A stretch of DNA of 54,309 nt from Fidelibacterota bacterium (GTDB lineage: Bacteria > Fidelibacterota > Marinisomatia > Marinisomatales > TCS55): positions 1 to 54,309 of the forward strand of contig JAPYRG010000009.1 of NCBI GenBank assembly GCA_029936965.1. The letters run 5' to 3'. Below the pieces are notes generated by a model that was not told where the DNA came from, did not search any database, and saw nothing but the letters and a program-made list of their open reading frames with translations. A program made the position numbers and the translations under genes. This document shows positions 5,669-54,309 of the stretch, piece after piece; within the stretch, counting starts at the first letter, position 1; each line of letters opens with the position of its first letter.

Positions 5669-6304
5669 TTAAAATGGCAAGAATGTAATTAATGCTGAAA
5701 GGGTCATTGAGCTAATTGTTAAAATAGCTGTATTGCGATGAAGTTTAAGTGCATCATTGTATGTTATATTATACTTACCAGGGTTAGATACCCTTTTACC
5801 TAAAAAGGGCAATGCTATCATGCCGCTAAAATGAATAATTGATAACCAACGATGAATTCTAATTGAATCAATTTTTTTGTTATATCGAACTGCAGGTGGA
5901 GCAGTATAGCTTAACATTGCAGATGCAAAGTAGGACCCAATTGCAATGTTACCAAGCAAAGCATGATTATTACTCATTTTAGAATAATTTGAACCTGCAT
6001 TTTTTAACTTAGACCCTAAATAACCTTGGGCAAATAATAAACCTAAAGTACCTAGAGCTAATTTCTGATGTAACTGCAACATATTTTTTCTAAGGATTAA
6101 TTCTCGTGGACGATCAACATTAAACAATTTTGTTTTACGTAATAAGCCATTTTCAGACCATAACAGCTTCGTTTGCAAAGGCATATTCTCTGGGAGGTCA
6201 TATAAAGAACTTTTTTCATTAATATCAGGACTATCCTGACTACATAATGGAGACAACTGAAAGATAAACAAGAAAAATAAAAGTGTTTTATTATCTATTT
6301 TCAT
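5669..6304 (-). CDS. Cytochrome b561-like four-helix membrane protein, partner of YceI
   Basis: A 211-aa protein with an N-terminal signal-like hydrophobic segment (residues ~8-22), a ~50-residue extracytoplasmic linker, then four membrane helices. Each helix is preceded or opened by a His: H79 in LQLHQKLALG, H114 in NNHALLGN, H151/H158 in IHRWLSIIHFSG, H189 in LKLHRNTAIL. Paired His residues across a four-helix bundle are how b561-type cytochromes bind two b hemes. The family cannot be assigned by sequence identity alone, but the adjacent YceI gene strengthens the reading. Inferred role: transmembrane electron transfer coupled to the periplasmic YceI lipid carrier. It shares a 53-bp divergent intergenic region with the reductase on the other strand. 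Confidence 0.55.
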   Translation of the reverse strand: MKIDNKTLLFFLFIFQLSPLCSQDSPDINEKSSLYDLPENMPLQTKLLWSENGLLRKTKLFNVDRPRELILRKNMLQLHQKLALGTLGLLFAQGYLGSKLKNAGSNYSKMSNNHALLGNIAIGSYFASAMLSYTAPPAVRYNKKIDSIRIHRWLSIIHFSGMIALPFLGKRVSNPGKYNITYNDALKLHRNTAILTISSMTLSALITFLPF

Positions 6305-6357
6305 AACAACTCATATTAAATTGGATCAAACAATAATAAAAACACTTAAGGAATACA

Positions 6358-7428
6358 ATGAGCAAAAAATTAATGTTATATGGAGCAAATGGATATACAT
6401 CAAGGTTAATTATTAATGAACTAATTGGGCAAAATATTAAACCTATACTGGCAGGTAGAAATAAAGAAAAAATAAATAGTTTAGCAGATAAGCATGGATT
6501 TGATTCTTCTATTTTTTCATTAGATAATCCTGATAATATTGATAATATTTTGAAAAACATTGATGTTATAATAAATGCTGCTGGGCCATATTCATTAACA
6601 GCAAAATCTCTAATTGATAGTTGTATCCGAACAAAAACTCATTACATTGATATCACAGGAGAAATCGATGTGTTTGTTTATGCAGAGAGTAAAAATGAAG
6701 AAGCTACAGATGCTGGAATAATAATTTGTCCTGGCGTTGGCTTTGATGTAATTCCCACTGATTGTATATCTTTTATGTTAAAAGATAAACTTACCGATGC
6801 TAACGAATTAAATATTTGCTTCTTTAGTGAAAATGGAAAACCAAGTATTGGAACTGCAAAGACTTCTATTGAAGGATTAAGTAATGGAGGGAGGATAAGG
6901 AAAGATGGGAAAATTGAACAAGTCCCTCTTGCTCATTCAGTAAAAGAAATTGATTATGGCCAAGGGCCAAAAATGGCAATGAGTATTCCATGGGGAGATG
7001 TAGCTACGGCTTACTATTCTACTGGAATACCAAATATAACAGTATACACACCAAGATCAGAATCGGGGATAAATAAAATTAAAAAACTACGTAAATGGCT
7101 TTTTATTTTAAAATTGAAATTTGTGCAGAATTATATAAAAAACAAAATGGAGAAAAAGATTATTAATGGCGGTGATAGTGATGAGCAAAGAGCCAAATCT
7201 AAAATGTGGGTTTGGGCTGAGGTAAAAAATAAAAAAGGAAAAATAGAATCAGGATATTTTCAGGTAGCAAATGGATATGATGTTACTGGATATGGTGCAA
7301 TGTTTTTTGCCAAGAATATAATGAAAAATAAATTCGCTGGAGGATATTATACTCCTTCATTACTGCTGGGCTCAGATATTTTAGAATCATTACCGGGCTT
7401 TTCAGGAATAAAATTTTCAGATTCTTAG
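6358..7428 (+). CDS. Saccharopine-dehydrogenase-like NADP-binding oxidoreductase (trans-enoyl-reductase type)
   Basis: A 356-aa protein with an N-terminal Rossmann fold (YGANGYTSRLI, residues ~8-18), an AGRN motif after beta2, NAAGPYSLTAKSLIDSC and the downstream HYIDITGEIDVF. These are typical of the saccharopine dehydrogenase-like reductase group that includes trans-acting enoyl reductases of mycobacterial lipid synthesis. GVGFDVIPTDC is also characteristic of that group. An AAGGA ribosome-binding sequence lies about six bases before the ATG. It probably reduces a lipid or other acyl substrate, although the substrate is not visible. The propeller gene follows after 13 bases and may be co-expressed. 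Confidence 0.82.
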   Translation: MSKKLMLYGANGYTSRLIINELIGQNIKPILAGRNKEKINSLADKHGFDSSIFSLDNPDNIDNILKNIDVIINAAGPYSLTAKSLIDSCIRTKTHYIDITGEIDVFVYAESKNEEATDAGIIICPGVGFDVIPTDCISFMLKDKLTDANELNICFFSENGKPSIGTAKTSIEGLSNGGRIRKDGKIEQVPLAHSVKEIDYGQGPKMAMSIPWGDVATAYYSTGIPNITVYTPRSESGINKIKKLRKWLFILKLKFVQNYIKNKMEKKIINGGDSDEQRAKSKMWVWAEVKNKKGKIESGYFQVANGYDVTGYGAMFFAKNIMKNKFAGGYYTPSLLLGSDILESLPGFSGIKFSDS

Positions 7429-7441
7429 GATAATAATAATA

Positions 7442-8506
7442 ATGAAAATCGGCAAATATTTTTTAGTTATATTTTTAATTTTATTTCTTTATCTAGTTGC
7501 TTGGCCAATACCAATTGATCCTGTAGCATGGACACCCCCCTCTGCCCCAGATTTAAAAGGTGAATATGCAATAAATGATTATCTGGCTTCATCAAACATA
7601 ATTCATGTAAATGAATCTATTGGTCCAGAAGATGTTGATATTGATGAAAATGGGCTTTTATATGGTGGATTTTTAGATGGGAAAATTATACGATTCACTC
7701 CAGAAGGTAAAAATTTAGGAGTATTTGCTAATACAAAAGGGCGACCATTAGGTTTAGACTTTGATAATTCAGGTAATTTAATTATTGCAGATGCTTTGAA
7801 AGGACTCTTATCTATAGATATTAATGGTAATATCAAAACATTAGCTACTGAAATAGATGGTGTTCCTTTGAATTTTACTGATGATGTGGATGTGGGGCCT
7901 GATGGTATGATTTATTTTTCAGATGCTTCCGAAAAGTTTAATGTTCATAATTATAGGGGCGATCTTTGGGAACATCGTCCTCATGGTAAATTGATTAGTT
8001 ACGATCCTTCAACAGAAAAATTAACTCTTCTTTTGGATAATTTATACTTTGCTAATGGTGTTGCAGTTAGTGAAAATGGTGAATTTCTTTTGTTTAACGA
8101 AACATATGATTATTCTATTAGTAAATATTGGCTACAGGGGCCAAAAGCTGGCACTCGAGAAAGAATATTTACTAATACACCGGGATTCCCAGATGGTATA
8201 TCAACCGGGTCAAATGGAGTCTTTTGGATTGCAATGTTTACTCCTAGAAATGCAGAGGCAGATGCTCTCGCACCAAAACCATTTCTACGTAAAATTGTAT
8301 ATCGACTTCCTCTTTTCATACAACCGGCTCCAGTAAGACATGGTTTTATACTTGGAATTGACTCAAATGGAAATGTGATATATAATCTCCAAGATCCATC
8401 TCCAAATTCTTTCTCTCCTATCACAAGCGTTGAAGAAGAAAATGGAGTGTTATATTTGGGAAGTTTGAACTATCCAGGGTTTGCAAACATTAAGCGTCCG
8501 CAATAA
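7442..8506 (+). CDS. SMP-30/strictosidine-synthase-like six-bladed propeller, membrane-anchored
   Basis: A 354-aa protein with an N-terminal membrane anchor (residues ~4-23) and a propeller of the SMP-30/gluconolactonase/APMAP type. Visible blades are IGPEDVDIDENGLLYGG, RPLGLDFDNSGNLIIAD, FTDDVDVGPDGMIYFSD, FANGVAVSENGEFLLFN and FPDGISTGSNGVFWIAMF, with the usual Glu/Asn/Asp metal-site positions (E in GPEDV, N in FANGV, D in FPDGI). Close relatives (paraoxonase-like, APMAP, gluconolactonase) hydrolyse lactones or aryl esters at a calcium site. The 3' end overlaps the convergent kinase gene by 17 bases. A lactonase role is inferred; the exact substrate is unknown. Confidence 0.82.
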   Translation: MKIGKYFLVIFLILFLYLVAWPIPIDPVAWTPPSAPDLKGEYAINDYLASSNIIHVNESIGPEDVDIDENGLLYGGFLDGKIIRFTPEGKNLGVFANTKGRPLGLDFDNSGNLIIADALKGLLSIDINGNIKTLATEIDGVPLNFTDDVDVGPDGMIYFSDASEKFNVHNYRGDLWEHRPHGKLISYDPSTEKLTLLLDNLYFANGVAVSENGEFLLFNETYDYSISKYWLQGPKAGTRERIFTNTPGFPDGISTGSNGVFWIAMFTPRNAEADALAPKPFLRKIVYRLPLFIQPAPVRHGFILGIDSNGNVIYNLQDPSPNSFSPITSVEEENGVLYLGSLNYPGFANIKRPQ

Positions 8507-9542
8507 GATCTAATCCATATTTTGATACAAGATCTATCATATTGCCAAATATGGTAAACCGTTTATCCTTTGTTTGTCCTCTAAGAAAACGTATATAAAT
8601 CTGAGCTGCAATACCTATAAGCCGGTATAACCCTAATATATGATAAAAACGTATGTTAGAAATATCATAACCACTGATAGTTGCGTATTCTTCAACTAAT
8701 CTATTCCTAGAATAAAAACGTTCGTCTACAGGCATTGTTGATGCTTGTTGAAATAAAACAGGATCTGAAGGTGTGCACCAATAACTAAGTAAAGATCCTA
8801 AATCACAAAGTGGGTCTCCCAGAGTACACATATCCCAATCAAAAACTGCTATAATTTTTCCTGGATCACCATCATCAAACATCACATTGTCAAGTTTATA
8901 ATCATTATGTATAATACTAAACTGATTAGTATTAGGAATGTTTTTAATAAGCCAATTATATATTTCCTCTACTGAATCAAGATCTTGATGTTTTGCATTA
9001 TCCCATCTTTTTTTCCACCCAGCTACTTGTCTTTCTAAAAATCCACTTGGCTTACCTAAGTTATCTAGGTCAAGATCAGAATAATCTACCTGATGAAATT
9101 CTGCTAAGGTTTTTATTAATTGTTCACTTATTAATTCCGGGCCATTTTTTTTATTATAAAAATTTTCTGGTAATTCTTTTCGTATTACTGTTCCAACTTT
9201 TCGTTCCATTATAAAAAAAGGGGAACCTATTATGTCCACATCTTCACAAAAATGCAATGCCTGTGGGGCATATGGGAAACTTTTGTGTAAAACGGAAAGA
9301 ACTTTAAACTCTCTTGACATATCATGTGAAGTTGGAGCTAATGGGCCTAAAGGTGGCCTTCTCAGTACATACTGGTGTGATCCATAATCAAGAAGATATG
9401 TTAAATTAGCCTTACCTTCACCAAATTGACGTACTGAAAAATCATTTGAACTACCCTCAAGTTCACCAATTAAATATTCTCTTAGATTATTTTCATCAAA
9501 AGCCTCATCAGGTCTTACAGAAATGGTATCAGAATTAGTCAA
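8490..9542 (-). CDS. Aminoglycoside-phosphotransferase-fold kinase, ACAD10/11- and LvaA-like
   Basis: A 350-aa APH-family kinase. Visible are an ATP-lobe segment YLLDYGSHQYVLRRPP, the catalytic loop IIHNDYKLDNVMFD (Brenner-type HxDxxxxN) and the metal-binding VFDWDMCTLGDPLCDLG. The motif set RRPPLGPLAPTSHDMSREF is typical of the kinase paired with acyl-CoA dehydrogenases in ACAD10/11 and of bacterial LvaA-type kinases. Known family members phosphorylate the 4-hydroxyl of 4-hydroxyacyl-CoAs. The start is a TTG at 9542 that overlaps the stop of the upstream dehydrogenase (TTGACTAA); no Met lies nearby downstream, so translational coupling is likely. Overlaps the convergent propeller gene by 17 bases. 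Confidence 0.85.
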   Translation of the reverse strand: MTNSDTISVRPDEAFDENNLREYLIGELEGSSNDFSVRQFGEGKANLTYLLDYGSHQYVLRRPPLGPLAPTSHDMSREFKVLSVLHKSFPYAPQALHFCEDVDIIGSPFFIMERKVGTVIRKELPENFYNKKNGPELISEQLIKTLAEFHQVDYSDLDLDNLGKPSGFLERQVAGWKKRWDNAKHQDLDSVEEIYNWLIKNIPNTNQFSIIHNDYKLDNVMFDDGDPGKIIAVFDWDMCTLGDPLCDLGSLLSYWCTPSDPVLFQQASTMPVDERFYSRNRLVEEYATISGYDISNIRFYHILGLYRLIGIAAQIYIRFLRGQTKDKRFTIFGNMIDLVSKYGLDLIADA

Positions 9543-10707
9543 TATAATTTTTGAGTATTATTCTAGCTATTAAGTTTTTATGAATCTCATCTGCCCCATC
9601 ATATATTCTTGCACCACGTTCATGGCGATACCAATATGCAAGAGGAGTATAATCTGTTATTCCTAATGCTCCATGCGCCTGAATTGCTCTATCAAGGACA
9701 TTCATTAAAACATTAGCAACACAAAGTTTAATCATAGAGATTTCTTTTCTTGCTCCCTTAGTTTGAAATTCTTGTACTTTCTTTGCACAATCTATTACCA
9801 TTAGTCTTGCGCCATAGATTTCTGCTGCAGATTCTGAAATCCAATTTTGGATTGTTTGCTTTTCAGCTAGAAATTGATTTGGGTTAAGCTCTCTTGTAGA
9901 TACTCTTCTACACATTAGGTCTAATGCTCGCTCACAAATTCCAATCCAGCGCATACAATGATGAATTCTTCCCGGGCCCAATCTCTCTTGTGCTAGCATA
10001 AAACCTTGGCCAATATCTCCAATCATATATGTTGAAGGTATCCTGCAATCTGTAAATTTGGTTTCAGCATGGCTGTTATAATCTTCACCCTCATGACCCA
10101 TGACAGGAATATTCCTAACAATTTCAAATCCTGGGTTATCCATTGGAACTACAAACATACTTGCTTTAGAATATTTATTTTCTGCATCTGGGTCTGTTAC
10201 TGCCATAACAACACAAATGCTTGCTCCATCTGCTGAGCTTGTGAACCATTTATTTCCATTAATCACATAATCATTACCATCTTTAATAGCTAATGTGTCC
10301 ATCCAGATTGGGTTCGAACCAGGATTTTGAGGCTCAGTCATACCAAAGCAACTGCGTATTTCTCCAGATATCAATGGAGAAAGAAACTTATTTTTTAACT
10401 CACTACTAGCACGATCCTTTAATAATTCTATATTACCAATATCTGGAGCTTGAGAGTTAAAACAATAATGACCTAATAGTGATTTACCCAAAAGTTCGCT
10501 CACACTAGCGAATTCTAATAATGAAAGGCCCATCCCTCCATGCTTTTTAGATAAATAAGGAGTCCAAAGTCCAAGTTTCTTCACCTTCTCTCTACATTCA
10601 TTTAATTTAGGCAATACACTTAAGAAGCCACGCAATAAAAAGTCTTCTTCTAGTGGAATAATATCCTCTTCGACAACTTCATTAATTCTATCTAGATAAT
10701 TTTCCAT
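9535..10707 (-). CDS. Acyl-CoA dehydrogenase, ACAD10/11-like
   Basis: A 390-aa FAD-dependent acyl-CoA dehydrogenase with the normal order: N-terminal helical domain, FGMTEPQNPGSN and NGNKWFTSSADGA in the middle, beta-domain, then the C-terminal helical domain. At the C-terminal active-site loop, where classical members have the catalytic Glu in YEGTxEI, this protein has YDGADEIH. The Asp-Gly-x-Asp-Glu-x-His form is, as far as I recall, typical of ACAD10/11-type enzymes, which act on 4-phosphoacyl-CoAs rather than simple acyl-CoAs. The following kinase gene, overlapping by eight bases, fits that assignment: the kinase adds phosphate and this enzyme eliminates it to give an enoyl-CoA. Confidence 0.88.
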   Translation of the reverse strand: MENYLDRINEVVEEDIIPLEEDFLLRGFLSVLPKLNECREKVKKLGLWTPYLSKKHGGMGLSLLEFASVSELLGKSLLGHYCFNSQAPDIGNIELLKDRASSELKNKFLSPLISGEIRSCFGMTEPQNPGSNPIWMDTLAIKDGNDYVINGNKWFTSSADGASICVVMAVTDPDAENKYSKASMFVVPMDNPGFEIVRNIPVMGHEGEDYNSHAETKFTDCRIPSTYMIGDIGQGFMLAQERLGPGRIHHCMRWIGICERALDLMCRRVSTRELNPNQFLAEKQTIQNWISESAAEIYGARLMVIDCAKKVQEFQTKGARKEISMIKLCVANVLMNVLDRAIQAHGALGITDYTPLAYWYRHERGARIYDGADEIHKNLIARIILKNYID

Positions 10708-10783
10708 ATAAATCTCAATATTTTAATTTTGTTACTATTACTCCGCTATTAAATCTAATGGTGCAATTATGAGAAAAATAGAT

Positions 10784-12229
10784 TTATTTGATTGCAGATT
10801 CTTTTTCTTGGGTAAAAATACTAACAATGAGTAACACCAATGAAGAAACTAAAATCGCTGGTAATACTTCATCTAATGAAAAATAGAGTTCGCTTGGCAA
10901 CCAATTCCAAAGTATCGGGAATTCCTTCCACAAAAAGGTTATAATAATTCCTGATAGTATTGAAGTTACTGCACCTTCTTTTGTAGAACGCTTCCAGAAT
11001 AATGCTGCTAACAAAGCAGGAGTAATTGATGCGCCATATATTGTGTAAGCGTACAATGCTCGTTCAAAAAAACCAGCTGATTTAGAAAAACCAATAGAAA
11101 CGATATATGCTAAAATTCCAAGAATAAGTACCAATAAACGACTTAAACCCACGATTTTCTTTTCAGATGCGCTTTCATTTATATATTTTAAATAAACATC
11201 TTTTATAAGAGTATTTGCAGGGATTAATAAAAAAGAATCTGCTGTCGATATAATGATACCTACAATGGTTGCAAGCATCATTGCACCTAAAAATGAAGGT
11301 AACAAATCATAAGCAGTATAAATCAGAACATACTTACCCACTTCATCTTCTATTATCAGACTTGATGCAACCCATGATGAAGCAATAATCAGTAATTCAA
11401 TAATCAATACTGCAAATATCAATATAATTGTTGCTTTGGTTGCGCTTTCATGATCTTTACTTGCAGAAAATCTTTGATACATATTTGCATCTCCAAGAAT
11501 TAACAGAAATGGAGGTAAGCAAAAATTGATAATATCAAAAGTGGAAAAGATACCAAAAAATTGCATATGACTAGATTTATTCATTGATTCGAAAGCTATT
11601 TCCATTCCATTAAATCCTCCAGCTTTTATCCATAGAATAGGAAAAGCGATGACAAGACTTATAGTCATAAGTATTCCATTTGCTGCATCTGTAAATGCCA
11701 CACTTAATAGGCCAGCTAACATTGTATATAAAATGATAAAAATGGCTGCAATAATTGTTGCAGTTTCAATAGTAAAGAAAGGTGATTGTATTTGATTAGA
11801 AAAGACTGTATATATTACTGCTCCGCCAGCATTGTATTGATAACTTACGATCACCATATACGCAGAAACCAATGCAAATACACATAAATTTCTAGCAAAT
11901 GAGCCGTATCGATCACCTATTATTTCAGGAACTGTAAATTTTTTCACATTCCGTACTTTTCCGGCAACTTTAGTTAATAGTATTATACCCATAATGCTTC
12001 CAATAGGTAACATCAATGCTGCCATTCCTATTTCATACGTTTTACCGGCATTGCCTAATATAGAACCTGTTCCAATCCATGTGGCAAGCATCGTGCCCAC
12101 TAAAATCCATGGGGTTAGAGATCTACCTGCAAGTGCAAAATCTGATTGAGTATTTATTTTGCGTGATTTAACTATCCCTATACCAATCAGTATTAAGAGA
12201 TATAATAAGATTACACTTAAATAAATCAA
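10784..12229 (-). CDS. Sodium:solute symporter family (SSS) transporter
   Basis: A 481-aa integral membrane protein with about 12-13 hydrophobic helices. SSS signatures include SDFALAGRSLTPWILVGTML at the N-terminus, then WIGTGSILGNAGKTYEIGM, YTMLAGLLSVAFTDAANG and ISTADSFLLIPANTLIKD near the sodium-binding region. It couples sodium influx to uptake of a solute. The substrate is not readable, but the nearby acyl-CoA genes make an organic acid a reasonable guess. It is separated from the acyl-CoA dehydrogenase by 76 bases on the same strand, and divergent from the YyaL-like gene across 90 bases. Confidence 0.9.
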   Translation of the reverse strand: MIYLSVILLYLLILIGIGIVKSRKINTQSDFALAGRSLTPWILVGTMLATWIGTGSILGNAGKTYEIGMAALMLPIGSIMGIILLTKVAGKVRNVKKFTVPEIIGDRYGSFARNLCVFALVSAYMVIVSYQYNAGGAVIYTVFSNQIQSPFFTIETATIIAAIFIILYTMLAGLLSVAFTDAANGILMTISLVIAFPILWIKAGGFNGMEIAFESMNKSSHMQFFGIFSTFDIINFCLPPFLLILGDANMYQRFSASKDHESATKATIILIFAVLIIELLIIASSWVASSLIIEDEVGKYVLIYTAYDLLPSFLGAMMLATIVGIIISTADSFLLIPANTLIKDVYLKYINESASEKKIVGLSRLLVLILGILAYIVSIGFSKSAGFFERALYAYTIYGASITPALLAALFWKRSTKEGAVTSILSGIIITFLWKEFPILWNWLPSELYFSLDEVLPAILVSSLVLLIVSIFTQEKESAIK

Positions 12230-12319
12230 TTAATTCCTACTTTACGATTATAGTTTTTATGTATTATAAGCTGTTACATTTTGAAATTACGTGGTAGATG
12301 CCCAAATTCCAAGATGGCT

Positions 12320-14464
12320 ATGAATCCATACAAACAAATAGAGATATTATTACTTATATTATTTATCAGTTGTACTACTAAATCACAAACAGACAGTAAA
12401 ATTGAAAAAGTTAAAGATGTAAAAATGAATCGTCTTGCAGATGAACAAAGTCCATATCTATTGCAACATGCAGATAACCCTGTCGATTGGTATCCATGGG
12501 GAGAAGAAGCTTTTAATAAAGCGAAAAAATTAGACCGTCCCATTTTTTTATCTATAGGTTACTCAACATGTCACTGGTGTCATGTTATGGAACATGAATC
12601 ATTTGAAGATGACAGCGTGGCAAAACTATTAAATGAAAATTTTGTATCTATTAAAGTTGATCGAGAAGAATTACCTGAAATTGATCATTTATATATGTCT
12701 GTCTGTCAGGCAATGACAGGTAGAGGTGGATGGCCACTTAATATTGTAATGACACCACAGAAAGAACCATTTTTTGCAGGTACTTATTTCCCTAAAGATA
12801 GTAGAAGCGGTAGATCTGGAATGTTTCAGATATTGCCTATGATAACGGAAGCTTGGACAACAAAACGTGATGATATTATGACTTCGGTTAATCAAGTAAA
12901 AAATTATCTTGATAAAATAAACTCTAAACCTGCAGGAAATAATCTATCAGAAGAATTAATTACTTCAGCCTATGACCAATTTCGCAATGGTTTTGATGAA
13001 GAACATGGTGGCTTCTTTAGAGCACCAAAATTTCCATCTTCTCATAATTTGATATTTTTAATGAGGTATAATTATTCTTATGGCAATCAACTTGCATTGG
13101 ATATGGTTATAAAAACGTTGAAACAAATGCGACTTGGTGGTATTTATGACCAAATTGGGTTTGGGTTTCATCGCTATTCTACGGATAGGCATTGGCTCGT
13201 TCCCCATTTTGAAAAAATGCTTTATGACCAAGCAATGATTGCTATGGCCTATACAGAAGCCTTTCATATAACTGGTGATAAAATTTTTGAAAGTACTACT
13301 AAAGAAATATTTAAGTATGTTTTGCGTGATTTAACAGCCTCAAATGGAGGCTTCTATTCAGCCGAAGATGCAGATAGTGAAGGGGAAGAAGGAAAATTTT
13401 ATACATGGACTAAAAAAGAAGTTGAGGAAGTCTTAGGCGCCTCGTTAAGTAAAGATTTCAATAATACATTTTCAATAAAATATGAAGGCAACTTTAAAGA
13501 TGAGTCAAGCGGAAAAAAGAATGCGCAAAATATCCCTCACTTAAATAATTTTGATTTTTATAATCAACCTTCGATAGAGTCTGCAAGAAAGAAATTATTT
13601 GATAAAAGAGAATATAGAGTTCATCCATTAAAGGATGATAAAATACTTAGTGATTGGAATGGTTTGATGATTGCCGCTCTTGCAAGAGCGTCCATTATAT
13701 TTCAGGAACCCTCCTATCTTAAAGCAGCAAAGAAATCTTCTGAATTCGTACTAAATAAAATTTCTAAAGATGGAAAATTACTAAAAAGATTTCGAAATAA
13801 TAAAGCTGCTATTAATGCCCATCTTGATGATTATGCGTTTATATCATGGGGTTTATTAGAGATATATGAAGCATCCTTCGAAGCAGAATATCTATCTAAA
13901 TGTATTGATTTAATGAATATAATGGTAGATGATTATTGGGATGATAAGAATGGTGGTTTTTTTCTTGGGTCTGATCAATCTGAAAAACTTATAGTAAGGA
14001 CAAAAACAGCTTATGATGGTGCAATTCCATCGGGTAATTCTGTAGCTGTAATGAATATGCTTAAACTCTCACGAATAACTGGTGATGTTAAATGGGCAGA
14101 TCTTGCAGAAAAAACAATTCGAGCTTTCTCTGAAGATATACATCGTGCACCTACAGGTTATACTTTAATGCTTTCCGCATTCTTATTTGATACAAATAAA
14201 TCAAAGGAGATTGTTATTGTTGGTAATGGAAAAGATGATAAAACTATAGAATTTATAAATGCAATCCGTTCAGAGTATGCTCCTCATAAAGTCTTATTGT
14301 TAAAGGATACTTCATTAAATTATAATCAATTAGAACAATTTGCAAATTGGACTAGTACACAATATAGTATTGATGAGAAGCCAACTGCATATATATGCAA
14401 AAATTTTGCATGTAATCAACCAACTAATGATTTAAAAACTGCATTAACTTTACTAAATGAATAA
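12320..14464 (+). CDS. DUF255 / YyaL-type thioredoxin-domain lipoprotein
   Basis: About 714 aa from the ATG at 12320. The frame can be opened at 12281, but 12320 gives a compact lipoprotein signal ([18 protein letters not shown], cysteine as lipidation site), while the longer start puts charged residues ahead of it. The N-terminal domain has the DUF255 signature [19 protein letters not shown] and a thioredoxin-like [14 protein letters not shown] with a CxxC. An (alpha/alpha)6-barrel domain related to N-acylglucosamine 2-epimerases follows ([39 protein letters not shown]). Relatives include human SPATA20; the biochemical role is unknown. Most bacterial YyaL proteins are cytosolic, so the lipid anchor is notable. 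Confidence 0.85.
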
Positions 14465-52612: not shown

Positions 52613-54309
52613 CTATTGTAACCAATTATTATCAAGATTAGTAATCTTAATGGAACCATCTTCATCATAATAGGTCCAATCTTCATCAAAGCTTCCCCAA
52701 AATGTTGGATTACCATCTGAAAGAATCTGGCCTACAAATGTACCATTTCTAAATTCACCTATATATTTAAATCCATTTGCATGAGCATATATTCCTTGAT
52801 CATGATATATACCTTCTCTTAATCCGCCAACATATTTTGAACCATCAGCAAAATTGACTGTGCCTTCACCGGTTAATTTTTTACCATCTCTCCATTCTCC
52901 TGTCCATTTATCTCCTTCAGAATACGTTAATGTACCAATCCCATGTCTTTCCCCATCTTTAAACTCACCTTTATATTGTTGTCCATTAGGATACAAATAC
53001 TTGCCATAACCGTTTCGCTCGCCATCTTTAAAATCGCCAATGTATTGTTTGCCATCAGCATAAATAAAAGTTCCACGTCCATTCCTCTCGCCATATTTAA
53101 AATCACCAATGTATTGTTTGCCGTCAGGATATGTATACGTTCCACGTCCATGTCTTTCCCCATCCTTAAATTCACCTACATATTGTTTACCATCAGGGTA
53201 AGTATATGTTCCAAGACCATTATACTCTCTATATGAATATTCACCTAAATAAGTTGAACCATCTGGATTCTTGATGGTGCCGTGGCCAGCTACCTTCTTT
53301 CCTTCTTTCCATTCTCCTATCCATTTATTTCTATCTGAATAAGTATATGTCCCTTTTCCTTCATATTCACCATTGATTAATGATCCTTCATACATTGATC
53401 CATCTGTATATTTAATTGCCCCTTTTCCATTTACCCTTTTATCATCTTTCCATTCTCCTTCCCAATGTATTCCATCAGAATATGTGTGGGCACCAACTCC
53501 ATTATATGATCCATCTGTATATTCACCCACATATTTGGATCCATCTTCGTAATTTATTGTTCCTTTACCAGTTAGTTTATCTCCGTCTTTCCATTCTCCT
53601 TCCCAATTTTCATCATTCTCATATTTGAGCGTGCCTTCACCATTATATTTTTTTCCGTCTTTCCATTCTCCTTCCCAATTTTCCCCATCAAAATAAGTAA
53701 ATATTCCATAACCATTTCGTTCTCCGTCTTTGTGGTCACCCACATATTTCGAACCATCTGGATACTTTAATATACCATTTCCATCCATTTTACCTTTTTT
53801 ATAACCACCTGTCCATTCTTTTCCATCATTATACTTAATTGTACCTTGACCATTAAACTTCTGTCCTTTTATCCATTCTCCTTCCCACTGTTTTCCATCA
53901 ATGTAAGAAAATATTCCTTCACCATCATATAAGCCGGCACTAAAAAAACCTACATACTTGGAACTATCAGGATAAATTAACTTTCCCTGTCCACTATATT
54001 CATTATTTACAAATTCTCCGATATATTTCTTCCCATCCGCAAGGTACAATGTCCCAGAACCAATTCTTTTACTATCCTCCAATGGGCCTGTATATTTGGA
54101 ACCATCACTGTAGTTTACAGTCCCCGCTCCAGTTAACTTATCTCCATCTATCCATTCGCCACTCCACTGATCACCATTTGCATATGTATAGGTCCCTTTT
54201 CCATTATACTTACTGTCTCTGAACTCGCCTACATACTTGGAACTATCAGGATAAATTAACTTTCCCTGTCCACTATATTCATTATTTACAAATTCTCCGA
54301 TATATTTCT
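52613..54309 (-). CDS. MORN-repeat protein, N-terminus beyond window edge
   Basis: The minus-strand frame is open to the last base (565 codons plus two bases); a TTG at 54082 is only an internal Leu codon, not the start. About 23 MORN repeats of 23 or 24 residues (KYVGEFKDGERHGRGTYTYP-type) fill it up to a short non-repeat tail (WGSFDEDWTYYDEDG). Repeats alternate between Tyr-type (xYxGEF) and Trp-type (xWxGEWKDGK). MORN repeats bind lipids or act as rigid beta-spacers; bacterial examples are poorly understood. No catalytic domain is visible in the part present. Signal peptide status is unknown since the start is missing. Confidence 0.92.
   Translation of the reverse strand, partial: KYIGEFVNNEYSGQGKLIYPDSSKYVGEFRDSKYNGKGTYTYANGDQWSGEWIDGDKLTGAGTVNYSDGSKYTGPLEDSKRIGSGTLYLADGKKYIGEFVNNEYSGQGKLIYPDSSKYVGFFSAGLYDGEGIFSYIDGKQWEGEWIKGQKFNGQGTIKYNDGKEWTGGYKKGKMDGNGILKYPDGSKYVGDHKDGERNGYGIFTYFDGENWEGEWKDGKKYNGEGTLKYENDENWEGEWKDGDKLTGKGTINYEDGSKYVGEYTDGSYNGVGAHTYSDGIHWEGEWKDDKRVNGKGAIKYTDGSMYEGSLINGEYEGKGTYTYSDRNKWIGEWKEGKKVAGHGTIKNPDGSTYLGEYSYREYNGLGTYTYPDGKQYVGEFKDGERHGRGTYTYPDGKQYIGDFKYGERNGRGTFIYADGKQYIGDFKDGERNGYGKYLYPNGQQYKGEFKDGERHGIGTLTYSEGDKWTGEWRDGKKLTGEGTVNFADGSKYVGGLREGIYHDQGIYAHANGFKYIGEFRNGTFVGQILSDGNPTFWGSFDEDWTYYDEDGSIKITNLDNNWLQ
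53949..54030. repeat. 82-bp perfect direct repeat, copy 1 (in MORN gene)
   Basis: An 82-base segment identical to 54228-54309, offset by 279 bases = 93 codons. That equals four MORN units (23+23+24+23), so the repeat preserves frame. Perfect identity at silent positions shows a recent duplication or gene conversion within the gene. Confidence 0.95.
54228..54309. repeat. 82-bp perfect direct repeat, copy 2, at window end
   Basis: Second copy of the repeat, running to the final base. The real identical stretch may extend beyond the window. Sequence ends inside it, a common place for short-read assemblies to stop, so the true number of copies is uncertain. Confidence 0.95.

Follow-up and report, generated by a model that had tools for sequence, protein, structure and literature searches.

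A divergent ACAD10/11-type kinase–dehydrogenase pair beside a strictosidine synthase-like propeller in a Marinimicrobia genome

In mammals, ACAD11 and ACAD10 combine a kinase with an enzyme of the acyl-CoA dehydrogenase (ACAD) fold, while in the lva operon of Pseudomonas putida the two parts, LvaA and LvaC, are encoded by separate adjoining genes. According to PMC12440821, three features are specific to ACAD10/11 and LvaC: an HCMR motif, R626, and a catalytic Asp that is D753 in mouse ACAD11. The same paper assigns roles to D220 and N225 in the ACAD11 kinase. Moreover, split bacterial relatives of ACAD10/11 are already published, since PMC11342911 describes the use of Burkholderia orthologues and gives an identity of 56-62% between ACAD10/11 and LvaC. 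Here we describe a locus at positions 7442-10707 of a 54,309-nucleotide stretch, hereafter the window (contig JAPYRG010000009.1, assembly GCA_029936965.1), which is a contig of a 2.14-Mb Marinimicrobia genome most closely related, among named genomes, to Candidatus Neomarinimicrobiota assemblies. Two overlapping genes of this locus probably form a two-gene, divergent ACAD10/11 (LvaC/LvaA) system acting on 4-hydroxyacyl-CoA, and the beta-propeller gene that faces them is probably an independent neighbour by descent. An earlier, sequence-only reading had instead joined all three genes in one route, with the propeller opening gamma-lactones and a nearby sodium symporter importing the acid.

The kinase–dehydrogenase pair

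The pair comprises the following features:

9535-10707, minus strand: ACAD10/11-type (LvaC-like) acyl-CoA dehydrogenase, 390 aa, assigned from Pfam, best PDB matches and tree
9949-9984, minus strand: codons of R242-R253 (RLGPGRIHHCMR), covering the Arg that corresponds to R626 of ACAD11 as well as the HCMR motif (H634, R637), by alignment
9598-9600, minus strand: codon of Asp370 in YDGADEIH, equivalent to the catalytic D753 of ACAD11, by alignment
8490-9542, minus strand: kinase of the APH fold with 350 aa and a TTG start, LvaA-like and predicted to phosphorylate 4-hydroxyacyl-CoA, assigned from Pfam PF01636 and PDB matches to 9o56 and then to the ACAD11 kinase domain
8886-8903, minus strand: codons of Asp214-Asn219 (DYKLDN), whose two end residues correspond to the catalytic D220 and to N225 of ACAD11, by alignment
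9535-9542, minus strand: 8-base overlap of the dehydrogenase 3' end and the kinase start, dehydrogenase gene first, from open reading frame (ORF) coordinates

The dehydrogenase contains three acyl-CoA dehydrogenase domains of Pfam, and its top PDB matches, near 1e-72, are 4hr3, from a mycobacterium, and ACAD11 (2wbi, 8v3u and 8v3v), the next chain being an ordinary ACAD at 1.5e-40. Whereas ordinary ACADs have a Glu at the position of the catalytic Asp in the C-terminal YxG loop, the YDGADEIH loop, which the sequence-only reading had picked out, is present here with Asp370; in the aligned column 8v3u has D, the 8v3v mutant N and the ordinary ACAD 5ol2 E. R242 and H250-R253 align with R626 and the HCMR of ACAD11. 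Of 88 homologous ORFs, a set in which some genomes are counted twice, 86 have the pattern R.GPGR.HHCMR; the two ORFs without it are one and the same protein, carrying RLSPGRIHHCMR. In a tree of 40 rows, built with 5ol2 and three paralogues from the same genome and without LvaC, LvaA and ACAD10, the window dehydrogenase lies in a 36-row clade with ACAD11 and 4hr3 (support 100/100), with 5ol2 and the three paralogues outside it. Within this clade, 34 bacterial rows form a clade of their own (96/87), next to ACAD11 and 4hr3. Because the catalytic Asp, the Arg and the HCMR are present and the clade with ACAD11 is supported at 100/100, a grouping with ordinary acyl-CoA dehydrogenases is rejected and the assignment to the ACAD10/11 type stands. 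Family, clade and active-site residues are shown directly, and motif and clade together make the family placement firm; the substrate is a prediction.

The kinase belongs to the APH family (PF01636), and residue 1, at the TTG start, aligns with residue 1 of 9o56, its closest solved relative (43% identity, as compared with 33% to the ACAD11 kinase and 32% to 3dxp). It matches the ACAD11 kinase domain of 8v3v with an E-value of 3.2e-55 and keeps both the catalytic Asp and the Asn, the D214 column having D in 8v3v and A in the 8v3u mutant, so that the kinase too is of ACAD10/11 type. The other APH match of the genome sits on a different contig. The 8-base overlap between the two genes and the coordinates of all three ORFs agree with the sequence-only reading. 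This arrangement is observed directly; transcription of the pair as an operon is a prediction. At 78 of 80 named loci the dehydrogenase is followed, at a distance of no more than about 1 kb, by a kinase ORF of the same orientation, the exceptions being L035 and L057, the latter of which stops at a contig end. We surveyed 245 Marinimicrobia genomes and a set of 61 relatives, in which dehydrogenase and kinase are co-present in the same 11. The adjacency of the two genes is more than chance. At the end of a contig, a genome of the same genus carries a second, truncated dehydrogenase together with a symporter copy belonging to it (G002:C44:72-563); this could be a duplicate that arose in assembly.

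An ordinary FAD- and ETF-dependent acyl-CoA dehydrogenase that merely stands beside an unrelated small-molecule kinase would show the same fold and domains. However, an Asp where such enzymes have their catalytic Glu, the Arg and HCMR, the clade with ACAD11, the match of the kinase to the ACAD11 kinase domain and its constancy beside the dehydrogenase in those 78 of 80 loci make this explanation extremely improbable.

In the preferred reading, the kinase would place a phosphate on the 4-hydroxyl group of a 4-hydroxyacyl-CoA, and the dehydrogenase-fold enzyme would eliminate this phosphate from the 4-phosphoacyl-CoA, using FAD, Asp370, Arg242 and the HCMR motif, to yield a 2-enoyl-CoA that would enter beta-oxidation. 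CoA ligation and the later steps would fall to enzymes encoded elsewhere in the genome, in which five AMP-binding matches, all on other contigs, and four enoyl-CoA hydratase family matches make the rest of a 4-hydroxy acid route plausible.

Like mammalian ACAD11 and ACAD10, the locus combines a kinase with an ACAD-fold enzyme and has the catalytic Asp, the Arg626 equivalent, the HCMR and the kinase Asp and Asn. Unlike them, it encodes two separate proteins, with the dehydrogenase gene first and no third domain, and the identities to ACAD11 are 38% for the dehydrogenase (38% also to 4hr3) and 33% for the kinase. It resembles LvaA/LvaC in its separate adjoining bacterial kinase and dehydrogenase genes and in the residue pattern that is reported for LvaC. 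The lva operon differs in that no CoA-ligase gene is found among the neighbour ORFs read here, LvaE and LvaB references lying outside the search. Loci of the order SDR–ACAD–kinase in Bacteroidota, Chloroflexota and Acidobacteriota have a dehydrogenase about 57-63% identical to that of the window and an adjoining kinase, but often carry an SDR gene upstream, where the window has the symporter, have no propeller nearby, and most of them have a kinase of a different type, which in Bacteroidota is 33-42% identical.

In a kinase tree of 38 rows two kinase types are seen. The window kinase and those of other Marinimicrobia of families f1 and f8 group with 9o56 and part of the Chloroflexota, whereas the kinases of f15, a Marinimicrobia family of small genomes, fall in the other type, and therefore the f15 pairs represent a separate lineage. 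The dehydrogenase part is a deep bacterial clade with kinase partners of two types, and the difference in type between f15 and f1/f8 points to transfer or to an exchange of kinases.

Some observations weigh against the proposed system. Long branches were flagged in the dehydrogenase tree; the ordinary ACAD 5ol2 is 34% identical to the dehydrogenase, by the same measure that gives 38% for ACAD11; and the identities of the pair to ACAD11 (38% and 33%) are far under the 56-62% reported between ACAD10/11 and LvaC in PMC11342911, so that the substrate may differ. Phosphorylation followed by elimination might then be applied by the pair to another hydroxyacyl-CoA, such as a 5-hydroxy, branched or ring-derived one. 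Besides the low identity to characterised members, the separate 34-row clade beside ACAD11 and 4hr3 speaks for this, and the association of two kinase types with one dehydrogenase clade suggests substrate drift. Nevertheless, the phosphate-linked and catalytic residues are all retained, and we consider a different substrate unlikely, though a good deal less so than an ordinary dehydrogenase. Judged from its sequence, the pair is a new, divergent member of the known ACAD10/11 system in an uncultured phylum. NCBIfam gave no equivalog above cut-off for the dehydrogenase, the kinase, the propeller or the symporter. A literature search, which did not extend to subscription papers and is no proof of absence, found nothing on point that connects acyl-CoA dehydrogenases of Marinimicrobia with hydroxy compounds, and no link from a lactonase to 4-hydroxy acids.

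The propeller and its predicted metal site

Facing the pair are the following features:

7442-8506, plus strand: six-bladed beta-propeller, strictosidine synthase-like, with an N-terminal helix, probable metal-dependent hydrolase, assigned from Pfam, PDB sequence matches, an AlphaFold2 model and fold matches
7628-8194, plus strand: span of the four presumed metal-ligand positions E63, D147, N205 and D251, by alignment
8490-8506, no strand: convergent overlap of 17 bases between the 3' ends of propeller and kinase; of the 13 genomes having this junction, 11 show this length

Since the propeller is on the plus strand and the pair on the minus strand, the genes converge, as the sequence-only reading had it, and their 3' ends overlap. 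The propeller matches Str_synth, SGL and SSL_N of Pfam. Its AlphaFold2 model (mean predicted local distance difference test score, pLDDT, 80.9, with residues 22-31 below 50; predicted template modelling score, pTM, 0.80) has a helix at residues 2-19 followed by a six-bladed propeller. In a fold search with Foldseek and a second structural comparison, strictosidine synthases and rice TGW6 (8kg3) came first (Z 32-35), the lactonase RPA3624 and DFPase ranked next (Z about 30), and 8djf was also among the matches (within Z 30-35). The description of the propeller as SMP-30/paraoxonase-like therefore holds at the level of the superfamily, but Pfam, PDB and fold matches all place it nearest to the strictosidine synthase-like group.

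The positions E63, D147, N205 and D251 are invariant across 23 aligned propeller homologues and align in sequence with E, N, N and D of rice 8kg3; the propeller thus matches three of the four classical metal ligands, with an Asn-to-Asp change at the second position (D147). Most strictosidine synthase-like proteins are argued to keep the metal ligands and to be likely hydrolases, and one with three ligands is reported to hydrolyse, in PMC4215206. Relative to these propeller hydrolases (strictosidine synthase-like proteins, TGW6, RPA3624 and DFPase), the window propeller shares the fold (Z 30-35) and, in sequence, three of the four presumed metal-ligand residues, but is 14-32% identical and differs in the Asp at the second ligand position and the N-terminal helix. 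It is likely a hydrolase, predicted to be metal-dependent and membrane-anchored, for which a gamma-lactonase activity is one possible option of many. Because three presumed ligand positions are kept in sequence and the propeller does co-occur with the pair (see below), the objection that it lacks calcium-site residues and never accompanies the pair is not borne out.

Propeller and pair across genomes

The co-occurrence of the three genes, which is directly observed, has two sides. Among the 245 Marinimicrobia genomes, propeller and pair are both present in 30 and adjacent in 13. The propeller is found in 30 of 36 genomes with the pair as compared with 26 of 209 without it (Fisher p = 2e-17, kinship being ignored), and all 11 pair-bearing genomes among the 61 relatives carry it as well, an association stronger than a neighbour purely by accident would require. 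These two results count against an independent propeller. On the other side, 26 of 56 propeller-bearing genomes have no pair and 6 of 36 pair-bearing genomes, all of f15 and 56-93% complete, have no propeller. Within genus g6, the propeller is present in 5 of 5 genomes with the pair and in 5 of 8 without it, which is not significant (p = 0.20).

The convergent junction occurs in 8 of the 9 f1 genomes that have both propeller and pair and in all 5 of f8, while in 16 f15 genomes with both the two are never near each other. Of the 13 junction genomes, only those of L019 and L136 depart from the 17-base overlap. That this overlap is common to two families points to one old junction inherited by descent. 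The length is exactly the same in the window, L014, L015, L083, L089, L139, L140, L147, L148 and L149, two unrelated genes having kept it over two families at about 52-60% protein identity.

The neighbourhood on the other side of the propeller is also informative:

6358-7428, plus strand: saccharopine dehydrogenase-like NAD(P)-binding protein (SacDH-like), its gene lying upstream of the propeller in the same orientation, across a gap of 13 bases
L123, L124, L125, L126, L134, L153 and L154: loci with the site but no pair

At these seven loci, from two families, the order is SacDH-like, propeller and CN-hydrolase, with no pair between and the propeller retained (interrupted by undetermined bases in L154; the genome of L134 carries a pair on a separate contig, at locus L133). 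At seven others (L136-L140, L147 and L149) the pair stands between CN-hydrolase and propeller. This speaks for a pair that was later lost, or repeatedly gained, while the propeller stays.

In other phyla, no propeller was found near the pair at any of 73 loci (fetched flanks, BLAST at 1e-8 and hidden Markov model search to E = 10), at least 1.5 kb past the kinase being covered at 63 of the 71 such loci with a kinase. When 42 of these genomes from other phyla were searched whole, two had a propeller elsewhere. Both are Acidobacteriota (the genomes of L046 and L082), and their propellers, G266:C48 and G279:C158, are 46-47% identical and lie on contigs other than those a linked gene would give.

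These counts bear on the lactone route, in which a periplasmic gamma-lactonase propeller would release 4-hydroxy acids for import by the symporter, CoA ligation and conversion to enoyl-CoA by the pair. In its favour, the superfamily includes esterases, lactonases and paraoxonase, the subgroup is argued to be mostly hydrolytic where the metal ligands are retained (PMC4215206), E63, N205 and D251 are retained with Asn-to-Asp at the remaining ligand, RPA3624 and DFPase are among the fold matches, and the junction is kept in 13 genomes of two families, with the propeller in all 11 pair-bearing relatives. However, the genomes with propeller or pair only, the 16 with both apart, the seven pairless sites, the 0 of 73 loci and 2 of 42 genomes in other phyla and the order-wide occurrence of the symporter all speak against it, and a shared mRNA is impossible for convergent overlapping genes. 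As a unit, the route is possible but unsupported, and we regard it as improbable; the g6 comparison lends it no help either. It is equally doubtful that, in two Marinimicrobia families, a periplasm-facing lactonase propeller feeds the pair in a facultative lactone scavenging in which the pair comes and goes, the propeller then having a wider use than supplying the pair, for which we would give no better chance.

A stronger contender, although one we would put somewhat below even, is that the true partner of the propeller is the SacDH-like protein, in some membrane-lipid or ester metabolism. The two genes share a strand across a 13-base gap; of the 29 relatives with a propeller, 13 have the two side by side, as compared with 9 that have the pair beside it; and the SacDH-like gene adjoins the propeller with or without the pair, being kept at all seven pairless loci. 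Nevertheless, ten relatives carry the SacDH orthologue without a propeller, and in g3 and family f15 the neighbours of the propeller are, in its place, SDR genes or a gene for prolyl-tRNA synthetase.

Overall, shared descent explains the pattern better than partnership does, although the association across the phylum would still allow for a loose functional tie. The propeller would be an independent, membrane-anchored and probably metal-dependent hydrolase, placed there by descent at a junction that would be old in two families of the order, with the pair lost or gained beside it.

Neighbouring genes and significance

Upstream of the dehydrogenase lies one further gene of interest:

10784-12229, minus strand: sodium:solute symporter family protein, 76 bases upstream of the dehydrogenase

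The closest solved relatives of the symporter are choline and glucose transporters, which name no substrate for it. Because its orthologue is present in 48 of the 61 relatives, and adjoins the pair solely in genus g1, to which the window genome belongs (four genomes), its placement is no specific sign of acid import, and the symporter was dropped as evidence for a dedicated acid importer. Scans of positions 6000-12500 gave no excess of promoters (32 as compared with 34.3 +/- 6.4 by chance) or terminators (5 as compared with 3.1 +/- 1.8).

Elsewhere in the window, two small genes that overlap at 1785-2928 are assigned by Pfam to DUF1214 and DUF1254, domains that often form one single protein. 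A probable membrane protein of 211 aa without a Pfam match (5669-6304) is conserved in the genus next to a YceI-like gene, and a 489-aa protein at 52613-54082 has many MORN-like repeats, as judged by eye from the translation.

The lactone link, if true, would explain the use of lactones by such bacteria, and the scavenging variant would provide the first physiological link between this propeller subgroup and 4-hydroxy acid breakdown; as matters stand, the description of the locus is mostly careful annotation. The same site with and without the pair offers a clean natural contrast, which argues against the propeller as a dedicated lactonase. Kinase–dehydrogenase teams of this kind admit 4-hydroxy fatty acids to normal fat breakdown, and the pair described here, with its key residues all present, would place this ACAD10/11-type step in uncultured bacteria of the ocean.

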